From NCBI GenBank assembly GCA_002238825.1, contig MPNC01000001.1, positions 682,001 through 746,000 on the forward strand: a DNA stretch of 64,000 nucleotides, written 5' to 3'. Source of the DNA: SAR202 cluster bacterium bin87. GTDB lineage: Bacteria > Chloroflexota > Dehalococcoidia > Lucifugimonadales > UBA3495. The notes beneath the pieces were generated by a model that worked only from the letters and a program-made list of their open reading frames with translations, was not told the origin of the DNA and searched no databases. Shown piece after piece: positions 11,602-35,353 of this stretch. A program made the translations under genes and the position numbers. Positions within the stretch are counted from its first letter, which is position 1, and every line of letters begins with the position of its first letter.

Positions 11602-12534
11602 CTAGGATCCGGCAATTCGGCCGGAGCGGAGCGCCACGAACAGGTATGACGTGGCGTGGGAACGCCAGGGAGACCAGCGCTCGGAAAACGCGAGCAGTTG
11701 AGCGTCGTTGATCTCTTCGCCGTCGAAGTACAGGGCGCTGACGGTCCGGCGCAAAGCCAGGTCGCCGATCGGGAACCCGTCCGGGCGCGACAGGGCCCGC
11801 ACCAGAACCCACTGCGCCGTCCATTGCCCGACGCCTCGCATGGCCACCATGCGCTTCACCACCTCGTCATCCTCCAGGTCGTGCATACTGGCGAAATTGT
11901 CACCAGAATCCAGCGCGGCGCGCGCGATGCCCTGGATGTACTCGGCCTTCCGGAAACTGAGCTTGAGTTGGCGCAGGTCATCGACTTCGGCGGTTGCCAA
12001 CGATTCGGCGCGAGGGAAGGCATACCATTCGCGGTCGGAGACCGTGGCTCGAACACCGTAGGTCTCTATGAGCAGGCTGCGGATGATCCTGGCCACATTG
12101 GTCGCAATCTGTTGCCCCATGACTGCCTGCACCAGCGCCTCGTAAACCGAGGCGGATCGGGTGTTGTGGTACCCATAGAAATCGTTGACCACGGACGCCA
12201 GAACGGGATCTCCGGTAACCGCATCGTAAAACGGCCTGACGTCCTGGTCGCAACCCAGGAGCCAGGTGATCTGCTTCGCCGCTCGATCGGCGTCGGCACC
12301 GGTGATGTCGTCCCCGGTGAGCTCCACCAATAACTCCGGTTGGTCCACAGTTCCTACCGAGCGCACGGTCGCCAGCGCGACGTTGTCGCCCAGATCCACG
12401 AGCCGGAGGTACCGACCGTCGTCGTACTCCTCGGTTTTGAATTGCTGGTCTCGGGAATAATTGGGCTGACCCGCCGTCAGCTCGAAATCGTAGGGCGGTA
12501 CCGGGCGGACGGTGGTGACCAAGGTGGTTTCCAT
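11602..12534 (-). CDS. AlkA-type DNA-3-methyladenine glycosylase II (HhH-GPD)
   Basis: This 310-residue base-excision repair glycosylase removes alkylated purines. An N-terminal AlkA-N-like region (about 1-115) is followed by the HhH-GPD domain: LVQAVMGQQIA near 134-144, the helix-hairpin-helix MRGVGQWTAQ at 232-241, and the catalytic Asp258 in FPIGDLALRR. Its ATG overlaps the stop of the upstream ThpR gene (TGATG), so translation is coupled. It is the last gene of a leftward cluster that also encodes a Mug-type glycosylase. It converges on ffh with a 10-bp gap. Confidence 0.88.
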   Translation of the reverse strand: METTLVTTVRPVPPYDFELTAGQPNYSRDQQFKTEEYDDGRYLRLVDLGDNVALATVRSVGTVDQPELLVELTGDDITGADADRAAKQITWLLGCDQDVRPFYDAVTGDPVLASVVNDFYGYHNTRSASVYEALVQAVMGQQIATNVARIIRSLLIETYGVRATVSDREWYAFPRAESLATAEVDDLRQLKLSFRKAEYIQGIARAALDSGDNFASMHDLEDDEVVKRMVAMRGVGQWTAQWVLVRALSRPDGFPIGDLALRRTVSALYFDGEEINDAQLLAFSERWSPWRSHATSYLFVALRSGRIAGS

Positions 12535-13121
12535 CAGATTTGCACCTCTCCCAGGCTGGAGTATCGGGCGCCGCGGGGCGTGAGCACACTTCGATACAAC
12601 CGAACGGTATCGGGACGCCAGCTACGGATGACCGGCAACCTGGCCCGGGTCACAGCATCGGATATCGCCTGGCGTTGTCGGGGGGTTACCTGGTCGCGTA
12701 CTCGACCCAGCGTCAGGTGGGGTCGGAACGGGCGGCCATCCATTGACCAGCCAAGACCGGAAACCGACTGCTCGGCACGGTGGTGCAAGTCTTCCAGACT
12801 TTCAGAACCGCCGGAAACTCCGGCCCAGATCACCCTGGGGTTCCTGCTGGAGGGAAAGGTGCCCAGAGTCGACAGAGCCAGCGTTGACGGGCTGGCCTCA
12901 TCGAAGTTCTCGGCGATGGCGTCCAGGATTCGGGGCACGATTCGCGAGTCCGTGGGACCCAGGAATTTTAAGGTCAAATGAATGCCGTCCGGAGAAACCC
13001 AACGCACCCCGGAGGGCAGAGGACGGCTCAACACCGCGATCGTTTCAGCCAGTTGGCGGATCCATTCCTCCGGCAACGGCAACGCGATGAACGTCCGCAG
13101 GGTTTCTGACGCGGTGCTCAA
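12534..13121 (-). CDS. thpR: RNA 2',3'-cyclic phosphodiesterase (ThpR, 2'-5' RNA ligase family)
   Basis: This 195-residue 2H phosphoesterase has the two catalytic motifs HLTL at residues 48-51 and HLTL at 135-138, plus the family start TFIALPLPEEW. ThpR opens 2',3'-cyclic phosphates and can ligate tRNA halves in vitro. The start codon appears to be TTG at 13121, overlapping the TGA of the upstream gene as TTGA, and its own stop overlaps the alkA start. The three genes therefore form one tightly coupled unit. Length matches the family (about 180-190). Confidence 0.88.
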   Translation of the reverse strand: MSTASETLRTFIALPLPEEWIRQLAETIAVLSRPLPSGVRWVSPDGIHLTLKFLGPTDSRIVPRILDAIAENFDEASPSTLALSTLGTFPSSRNPRVIWAGVSGGSESLEDLHHRAEQSVSGLGWSMDGRPFRPHLTLGRVRDQVTPRQRQAISDAVTRARLPVIRSWRPDTVRLYRSVLTPRGARYSSLGEVQI

Positions 13122-14503
13122 GAGGCCAACTCGGCGCGCCAGCGATTTAGTTCCAGATACCAGAAGGCCAAATCGTTCAGGGAATAACGCGCGTTGGCCG
13201 GGCTGGGGTTCGGCAGCACGAACACTCGGCTGGAGCCGATCAAAAGGTCCTGTCTACCGAGCTGCAGGTTTCCGGCGTTTTTGATGCCCTCGCCGTGGCG
13301 CAGATAGGCGCGGTACGCCGTGAGGCCGTGGAAGCAGGCGATGCGCGGAACATGACTGAGCAGTTTCTCACGCAGGGTGGGCGCGTCCCGGCGGTAGTCG
13401 GCAGCCGTCAGGCCGGATGCCTGACTGGTGGGACGTTTGACCACGTCGGTGAAGCCGATGCCGTCGGCCAGCAGCGAGGCGTCATCTCCGGGTCCGACAG
13501 GCCGGCCCACGAAATTTGCCGCGGTCAGAGCTGACCAAAACCGGTTGCGGGGATTGGCAAAATAGTGGCCGGCCCGGACCGACCGGGTCGACGGGTTCAG
13601 GCCAATAAGGACAATGTCCAAACCGGGTTCCAGATAGTCGGGCAGGGTTTCCATGGGCTGATCGCCGGGGTTCACCAGCGAACAGGCATTGGCGCCCATG
13701 ATTGCGTCGGTGTCACTCTGCGGCAGGCCGGCAGACCGAACGTGATCGATGACCCGGCGATGCTTGAGCAGCGGGTAATCGGTGCCGAAAAGGACCCGGT
13801 CGGCGCCGGCGATCGTGGCCGCCGCGGCGATTGCCGACGGACGATACAGATAAGGGAGCGCCGCGGTGTCGTACCAAACGTTTTTCAAGGCGTCGGCAAC
13901 CTCGGGCATCGCGGCATAGAAGGGGAGGCCTCCGCCCAGATGGGCGAATACGATGCGGTTTGCCGGGAAGTTCTTCGCGAGTTGCAGCAATAGATCCGGA
14001 GTTGAAGATCCTTTGCCGGGGTACTGGTGACCCACGGGCTCAGAGGCATGGACCACTATCGGCGCGTTACGGGCGCGCAGCAGCGTCATCAGGGGGGACA
14101 TGACGGTGGGATCACCGATGTCGAAACCCTGGCTGTCGGCGTGAAGCTCTCCTATGCCCACAGCCCCGGCATCCAGGCACCGCGAAGCCTCGCACACGGC
14201 TGCTTCGCCCCATGCCGGATTGACGGACGCGAAGGCGGTGATGCGGTCAGGTTGAGCCAGGGATGACTGTATGAGGTAATCATTAACCTGTGCGGCGATA
14301 TCCGGGTCGGTCCAGCCAAATCCCATGGCTACGGCGTGATTGACACCAGAGACGTCCATGTCTCGCAGCAGCTGTACCGCGTCCGCGAAACGGCCGCCGG
14401 AGTCGGGGAACAGCGCGGCATAGGTGGCGTCCCGATCCGTCAGTTCATCGTGGCGAGAGGCGAAATCAGGAGGAAGAATGTGGCAGTGGCTATCGACAAT
14501 CAT
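13118..14503 (-). CDS. Amidohydrolase-2 domain fused to a Mug-type G/U(T) mismatch DNA glycosylase
   Basis: One uninterrupted 461-residue frame joins two normally separate enzymes. Residues 1-280 are an amidohydrolase_2 TIM barrel with metal ligands His6 and His8 (DSHCH), His152 (VHAS), His188 (AHLGGGLPF) and Asp242 (GTDYP). Residues 285-461 match Mug/TDG uracil-DNA glycosylases: GLNPS at 301-305 with Asn303, HYFANPRNRFW at 313-323, GIGFTDVVKRPT at 348-359 and the late NPSPANA at 432-438. The join IMGANACSLVNPGDQP reads like a normal amidohydrolase end, so this is a simple fusion. ATG 14503 is favoured because the homology begins there and a TATACT -10-like box sits at 14547-14552; a GTG at 14557 is possible. 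It is followed by thpR and alkA in an overlapping operon. The amidohydrolase substrate is unknown. Confidence 0.8.
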   Translation of the reverse strand: MIVDSHCHILPPDFASRHDELTDRDATYAALFPDSGGRFADAVQLLRDMDVSGVNHAVAMGFGWTDPDIAAQVNDYLIQSSLAQPDRITAFASVNPAWGEAAVCEASRCLDAGAVGIGELHADSQGFDIGDPTVMSPLMTLLRARNAPIVVHASEPVGHQYPGKGSSTPDLLLQLAKNFPANRIVFAHLGGGLPFYAAMPEVADALKNVWYDTAALPYLYRPSAIAAAATIAGADRVLFGTDYPLLKHRRVIDHVRSAGLPQSDTDAIMGANACSLVNPGDQPMETLPDYLEPGLDIVLIGLNPSTRSVRAGHYFANPRNRFWSALTAANFVGRPVGPGDDASLLADGIGFTDVVKRPTSQASGLTAADYRRDAPTLREKLLSHVPRIACFHGLTAYRAYLRHGEGIKNAGNLQLGRQDLLIGSSRVFVLPNPSPANARYSLNDLAFWYLELNRWRAELAS

Positions 14504-25238: not shown

Positions 25239-25314
25239 CGGGGTGTAGCGCAGTGGCTAGCGCGCCACGTTCGGGACGTGGAGGTCGGTGGTTCGAATCC
25301 ACTCACCCCGACCA
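25239..25314 (+). tRNA. tRNA-Pro (CGG)
   Basis: The acceptor stem CGGGGTG pairs with CACCCCG, the D stem GCGC with GCGC, and the anticodon stem CCACG with CGTGG. The loop TTCGGGA puts anticodon CGG at 25272-25274. The T loop is GGTTCGAATCC and the 3' CCA is encoded. It sits between the DUF4349 gene and the FAD-linked oxidase. Confidence 0.95.
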
Positions 25315-35278: not shown

Positions 35279-35353
35279 TGGTGGCGACGGATGGATTCGA
35301 ACCAACGACCTAGCGCTTATGAAGCGCCCGCTCTGCCACTGAGCTACGTCGCC
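35279..35353 (-). tRNA. tRNA-Met (CAT)
   Basis: On the minus strand, GGCGACG pairs with CGTCGCC. The D arm is GCTC-AGTGGCAGA-GCG, and the anticodon stem GGCGC/GCGCT encloses TTCATAA with anticodon CAT. The T loop is GGTTCGAATCC. Discriminator A and CCA are encoded. Its form fits elongator Met; an Ile tRNA with modified CAT cannot be excluded by eye. Confidence 0.93.

Follow-up and report, generated by a model that had tools for sequence, protein, structure and literature searches.

An amidohydrolase barrel fused to a Mug-type DNA glycosylase: a novel domain architecture formed from neighbouring operon genes in a genus of SAR202 bacteria

Introduction

Glycosylases of the Mug/TDG type (UDG family 2), represented by E. 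coli Mug (1mug) and human TDG, combine the UDG fold with a G-[IL]-N-P motif 1 and an NPS or MPS motif 2. The amidohydrolase family PF04909, with ACMSD and the gamma-resorcylate, 5-carboxyvanillate and iso-orotate decarboxylases, consists of TIM barrels with HxH/His/His/Asp metal ligands. A third set of relevant enzymes are the TatD-type metallonucleases (class II: YcfH, YjjV, TATDN3), whose ligand set is an HxH, a glutamate on strand 4, two histidines and an aspartate. The TatD enzymes of human and E. coli are AP endonucleases, and the metal of TATDN1 is bound by Glu112, His149, His174 and Asp222 (PMC10085689).

The gene described here lies in a 64,000-nucleotide stretch of the genome of SAR202 cluster bacterium bin87 (contig MPNC01000001.1, positions 682,001-746,000), hereafter the window. 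It encodes a PF04909 barrel and a Mug-type glycosylase in one frame and gives a known glycosylase family a novel domain architecture, derived from the merger of neighbouring operon genes. The first-pass annotation knew of no described enzyme built in this way, and a literature search, covering both this architecture and repair glycosylases in SAR202, likewise found none. The gene fusion is genuine, and the locus is probably best explained as a recent merger, with two co-translated enzymes tethered in cis.

Results and discussion

The fused frame

The features of the locus, all on the minus strand, are as follows.

13118-14503, minus: fused ORF, amidohydrolase barrel plus Mug/TDG glycosylase; 461 aa, same fused frame in seven congeners
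13676-14503, minus: N-terminal PF04909 TIM-barrel domain, residues 1-276; Pfam E=4.3e-33; AlphaFold of the barrel alone pLDDT 95.1, pTM 0.92
14480-14488, minus: HxH metal ligands H6-C-H8; across 30 homologues, H6 is invariant and H8 conserved to at least 90%
14147-14149, minus: E119, strand 4; invariant in the subfamily and shared with TatD, whereas the other PF04909 paralogues within the genus have Lys here
14048-14050, minus: H152, strand-5 ligand; invariant
13940-13942, minus: H188, strand-6 ligand (AHxGGG); invariant
13778-13780, minus: D242, strand-8 ligand (GTDYP); invariant
13649-13675, minus: junction/linker, residues 277-285 (VNPGDQPME); internal ATG at 13652-13654, residues 282-284 with pLDDT <50
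13121-13648, minus: C-terminal Mug/TDG (UDG family 2) glycosylase domain, residues 286-461; profile and fold matches
13589-13603, minus: Mug motif 1 GLNPS (G301-L-N303-P-S) with N303 at the catalytic position; alignment, residue numbering
13190-13210, minus: Mug motif 2 NPSPANA (N432-P-S-P-A-N-A); alignment, residue numbering
12534-13121, minus: ThpR/LigT, RNA 2',3'-cyclic phosphodiesterase, next operon gene, overlapping the fusion stop; TIGR02258 142 bits, over cut-off
11602-12534, minus: HhH-GPD DNA glycosylase, AlkA-like, following operon gene; PF00730, NF007641 below cut-off, conserved order

The frame runs through 461 residues with 0 internal stops. A GTG is found in frame 18 codons upstream of its ATG, and the aligned homologues start at the ATG (MIVD/MIID). 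The single intact frame, the metal ligands and the glycosylase motifs claimed in the first-pass annotation could all be located by residue, and from these intact active-site residues both domains look active. In the AlphaFold model of the whole protein (pLDDT 93.8, pTM 0.68), the fusion consists of two firm domains, and their position relative to each other is not confidently predicted.

The glycosylase domain

The C-terminal half matches the UDG superfamily model PF03167 over residues 288-443 (E=2.6e-19, over the Pfam cut-off). The Mug models NF007570 and TIGR00584 cover residues 284-459 with E ~1e-27, but score below their curated cut-offs (100.0 bits against 144, and 96.8 against 402.6, respectively), so that the status of an E. 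coli-type Mug equivalog is not claimed. The UDG fold and the two motifs place the domain in the Mug/TDG family. Fold comparison gave Z 28.0 with human TDG (rmsd 1.4 over 178 residues) and Z 25.4 with E. coli Mug, at 32-35% identity, and the G-L-N-P of motif 1, the catalytic-position Asn and the NPS of motif 2 are common to all. Unlike both of these enzymes, the fused protein bears an amidohydrolase barrel at its N-terminus; it also differs from human TDG in having no TDG tails and from E. coli-type Mug in its scores below the NCBIfam cut-offs. Judged by its family, the C-terminal half would excise uracil or thymine from G mispairs. Two further proteins of the UDG superfamily over the Pfam cut-off are encoded in the same genome outside the window (G000:C32:614000-614410 and G000:C53:11596-12114), so that it has other UDG-type glycosylases besides Mug.

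Distribution and operon ancestry

Eight of the 14 species of the genus carry the fusion as a single frame, and the remaining six have two adjacent genes. The search for other proteins sharing both domains, proposed in the first-pass annotation, thus yielded fused homologues in seven congeners, with 70-81% identity to the window protein, and homologues are not always encoded as two genes. The carriers are MAGs of uncultured Dehalococcoidia (Chloroflexota), two of the eight being single-contig chromosome-level assemblies (scan of genome contigs). Within a set of 60 relatives the fusion was confined to the genus, every relative examined outside it having separate genes, and among 400 Chloroflexota the fusion was found in the window's own genome only; a fusion widespread in the phylum is rejected for this sample. 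Purifying selection acts on both halves (dN 0.08-0.26 against dS 0.75-2.6), which, with the recurrence of the frame, excludes chance as its origin. The linker, with a dN of 0.3-1.15, is poorly conserved in sequence.

The two domains descend from neighbouring genes of an operon. In about 30 additional loci outside the genus, they stand side by side as two genes and keep the same order; the loci from the scan of genome contigs were retrieved with the fused protein as the query, a procedure that favours adjacency. Most loci outside the genus have amidohydrolase, Mug, ThpR and HhH-GPD glycosylase in this sequence, and L108 and L109, from two further lineages of the class, have amidohydrolase-Mug-ThpR as well. 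In the window, the fusion is followed by ThpR and the AlkA-like glycosylase, with ends that overlap (11602-13121), forming a compact repair-type operon that much of the order retains. Since the surrounding gene order (proBA, transketolase, ffh) is likewise conserved in many relatives, gene order by itself is a weak indication of function. The restriction of the fusion to one genus, with separate genes outside it, points to a young merger within an older repair-type operon. By this course of events, an old and closely packed operon of these four genes would have lost, within the genus, the stop and start separating amidohydrolase and Mug, which overlapped or nearly touched, and both enzymes would now be made as one polypeptide with a short flexible linker. 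Tethering may provide, at most, a fixed 1:1 expression and co-localisation.

In a seven-gene tree, seven fused species group together and the eighth (L044) sits with the unfused clade. A single clade of fused species was rejected by the concatenated tree (AU p=0.022), the single-gene trees being weakly resolved. At the L044 junction (L044:6740-6830), the last barrel helix (DAIMGGNAAxLL) is lost and the glycosylase is joined at a different point. Taken together, the AU result and this different junction imply either two fusions or one fusion plus one split. Repeated fusion, if it occurred, would be a hint that the fusion brings some functional benefit besides mere tethering.

The barrel and its possible action on abasic sites

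In the Pfam search of the fused protein, the PF04909 match spans residues 3-273 with 115.7 bits against a gathering cut-off of 26.4, covering positions 1-283 of the 289 in the profile. The metal site of the family is complete, with the HxH (H6, H8), the strand-5 and strand-6 histidines (H152, H188) and the strand-8 aspartate (D242). The best solved folds are aromatic decarboxylases with Z ~27, and the best 50 matches listed consist of decarboxylases (Z 24-27) and other PF04909 proteins; TatD chains were absent from these 50, by which similarity to them is not excluded. The barrel thus resembles the PF04909 decarboxylases in its whole-domain Pfam match, its TIM-barrel fold and its ligands, and differs from them in being shorter, in an invariant strand-4 glutamate, in a conserved EPVGHxYPGKG loop and in the glycosylase fused to it. 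By sequence, it clearly belongs with PF04909 and not with TatD, and its predicted fold also places it with PF04909, its nearest solved relatives including enzymes whose substrates are small carboxylated rings. The N-terminal half is predicted from its family to be a metal-dependent hydrolase, probably binuclear, which may have retained the activity of its stand-alone orthologues.

The strand-4 glutamate is what brings the TatD enzymes into consideration. E119 is invariant across 30 homologues, whereas PF04909 paralogues from the genus have Lys at this position and the ACMSD alignment shows Gln, and with E119 the barrel has the order HxH-E-H-H-D of class II TatD (HxH on strand 1, E119 on strand 4, H152 on strand 5, H188 on strand 6, D242 on strand 8). 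A coupled two-step repair could therefore be considered, in which a TatD-like metallonuclease barrel incises or trims the abasic site that Mug leaves behind and so relieves product inhibition; the AP endonuclease activity of TatD enzymes fits such a role, as do the RuvA, HhH-GPD, ThpR and RdgB genes adjoining the orthologues. Profile similarity to TatD is weak. The TatD Pfam model (PF01026, cut-off 27 bits) found no match in the window protein at any E-value up to 10, and four unfused orthologues reached 19.8-20.8 bits (E 2e-4 to 6e-4), below the cut-off. An hhalign comparison of the barrel with TatD (E=3e-4, probability 40%) paired E119, H152 and D242 with E91, H127 and D200, but left H188 unpaired with a TatD histidine and the HxH outside the aligned range, so that these two ligands correspond by strand order only; the EPVGHxYPGKG loop had no TatD counterpart in the alignment. 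Against a nuclease also stand the clear PF04909 sequence, the decarboxylases that come first among the structure matches, and the presence of TatD, Nfo and Xth in the same genome. With Nfo and Xth present, a missing AP endonuclease was rejected as the reason for a nuclease partner. On balance, the coupled-repair reading is unlikely.

The barrel without Mug

The stand-alone barrel was found in 102 of 400 Chloroflexota genomes (own genome included, E<=1e-60). Of the 33 genomes of the same order or class that have the barrel in this search, 31 have no detectable Mug, the exceptions being G089 and G192, a count obtained by comparing the list of barrel matches with that of Mug matches. The amidohydrolase is thus much more widely distributed than Mug. 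Order members lacking Mug often have the barrel directly adjoining ThpR (L126, L127, L130, L134, L137). In other Chloroflexota, its neighbours are RuvA (L147, L148, L149, L157), an MBL-fold hydrolase (L150-L155), ThpR (L159-L162), an HhH-GPD glycosylase (L160) and an RdgB-type pyrophosphatase (L166). Across these Chloroflexota lineages (L147-L166), the stand-alone amidohydrolase is repeatedly seen beside nucleic-acid genes of varied kinds. Barrel orthologues also occur with no Mug nearby in Desulfobacterota and Synergistota, and no recurring partner was seen among the barrel neighbours in these two groups and in Spirochaetes. A barrel present without Mug and with varied neighbours argues against a function dependent on the Mug product and mildly for a role in nucleic-acid or nucleotide upkeep. 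Its recurrent nucleic-acid neighbours leave room for a real joint function.

These distributions bear on the suggestion of the first-pass annotation that the barrel processes the base released by Mug, for example by deaminating or ring-opening it. Decarboxylation of the pyrimidine can be counted with these, and the most specific form of the proposal would be a reaction like that of iso-orotate decarboxylase. The physical fusion speaks for such a clean-up, as does uracil-5-carboxylate decarboxylase among the aromatic decarboxylase fold matches of the barrel (Z 24.8, 24% identity), but this fold rank is common to many aromatic decarboxylases, E119 is absent from ACMSD, and no sequence feature specific to pyrimidines was found in the barrel. 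Moreover, repair sets free only a very small flow of uracil, which salvage can handle. With the barrel mostly encoded in genomes lacking Mug and standing elsewhere alone or beside other nucleic-acid genes, the suggestion is not supported, and we regard it as improbable.

Both actions are special cases of a broader proposition, namely that a Mug-type glycosylase and a dedicated metal-dependent partner (TatD-like AP-site nuclease or released-base processor) form a hydrolytic two-step repair enzyme, and that the barrel is an unrecognised phylum-wide DNA-metabolism enzyme named 'amidohydrolase'. This remains doubtful. Through the fusion, a widely conserved subfamily of amidohydrolases is tied to base excision repair, and a ready expression construct for testing the link is at hand. 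If the barrel does act on AP sites or the excised base, many proteins named 'amidohydrolase' would have a role in DNA repair; if it has no such action, the locus would be a clean case of operon-to-fusion evolution.

Junctions and the origin of the merger

In the unfused congeners, the stop and start of the two genes overlap or nearly touch, e.g., GCATGACTGA in L051 and TGATGG in L018. Outside the genus, in L012:2300-2400 (G038) and in L011 (G035), the two genes share one frame and are separated by a lone TGA; the L012 junction reads LLGL*AMETLPDYL, and both loci are one stop codon short of fusion. Among the fused species, the junction spacing is identical in six, five of which have an ATG there and L039 a CTG instead. 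The internal ATGs two codons ahead of the glycosylase start were preceded by no Shine-Dalgarno-like stretch in the fused species, the window included. The L043 junction is shorter, and from 20 codons before to 11 codons after the glycosylase start there is no in-frame ATG, GTG or TTG; the L043 glycosylase can therefore be made only as a fusion.

A loss of the stop between such overlapping genes could also have been neutral, tolerated because both domains fold alone and bringing zero functional gain. The former overlap or near-contact of the genes, the poorly conserved linker and the domain packing predicted without confidence are all consistent with this, whereas the retention of the fusion in eight species at 70-81% identity, the linker length fixed in six of them and a fusion that possibly arose twice argue against it, making a purely neutral event very unlikely. 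As for a sequencing or assembly error hiding a stop, start or frameshift at the junction, the possible flaw named in the first-pass annotation, one continuous frame in eight assemblies of independent origin, including two single-contig chromosomes, rules it out. The preferred reading is still a genuine fusion of two enzymes tethered in cis.

Some long frames with Mug elsewhere in the class (L106, L114-L119, L121, L122) were discarded as candidates: they have no similarity to amidohydrolases and look like overlong stop-to-stop frames. An Rfam scan of the window detected no family over threshold apart from tRNA, of which two genes are present, at 25239-25311 on the plus strand and at 35282-35353 on the minus strand.
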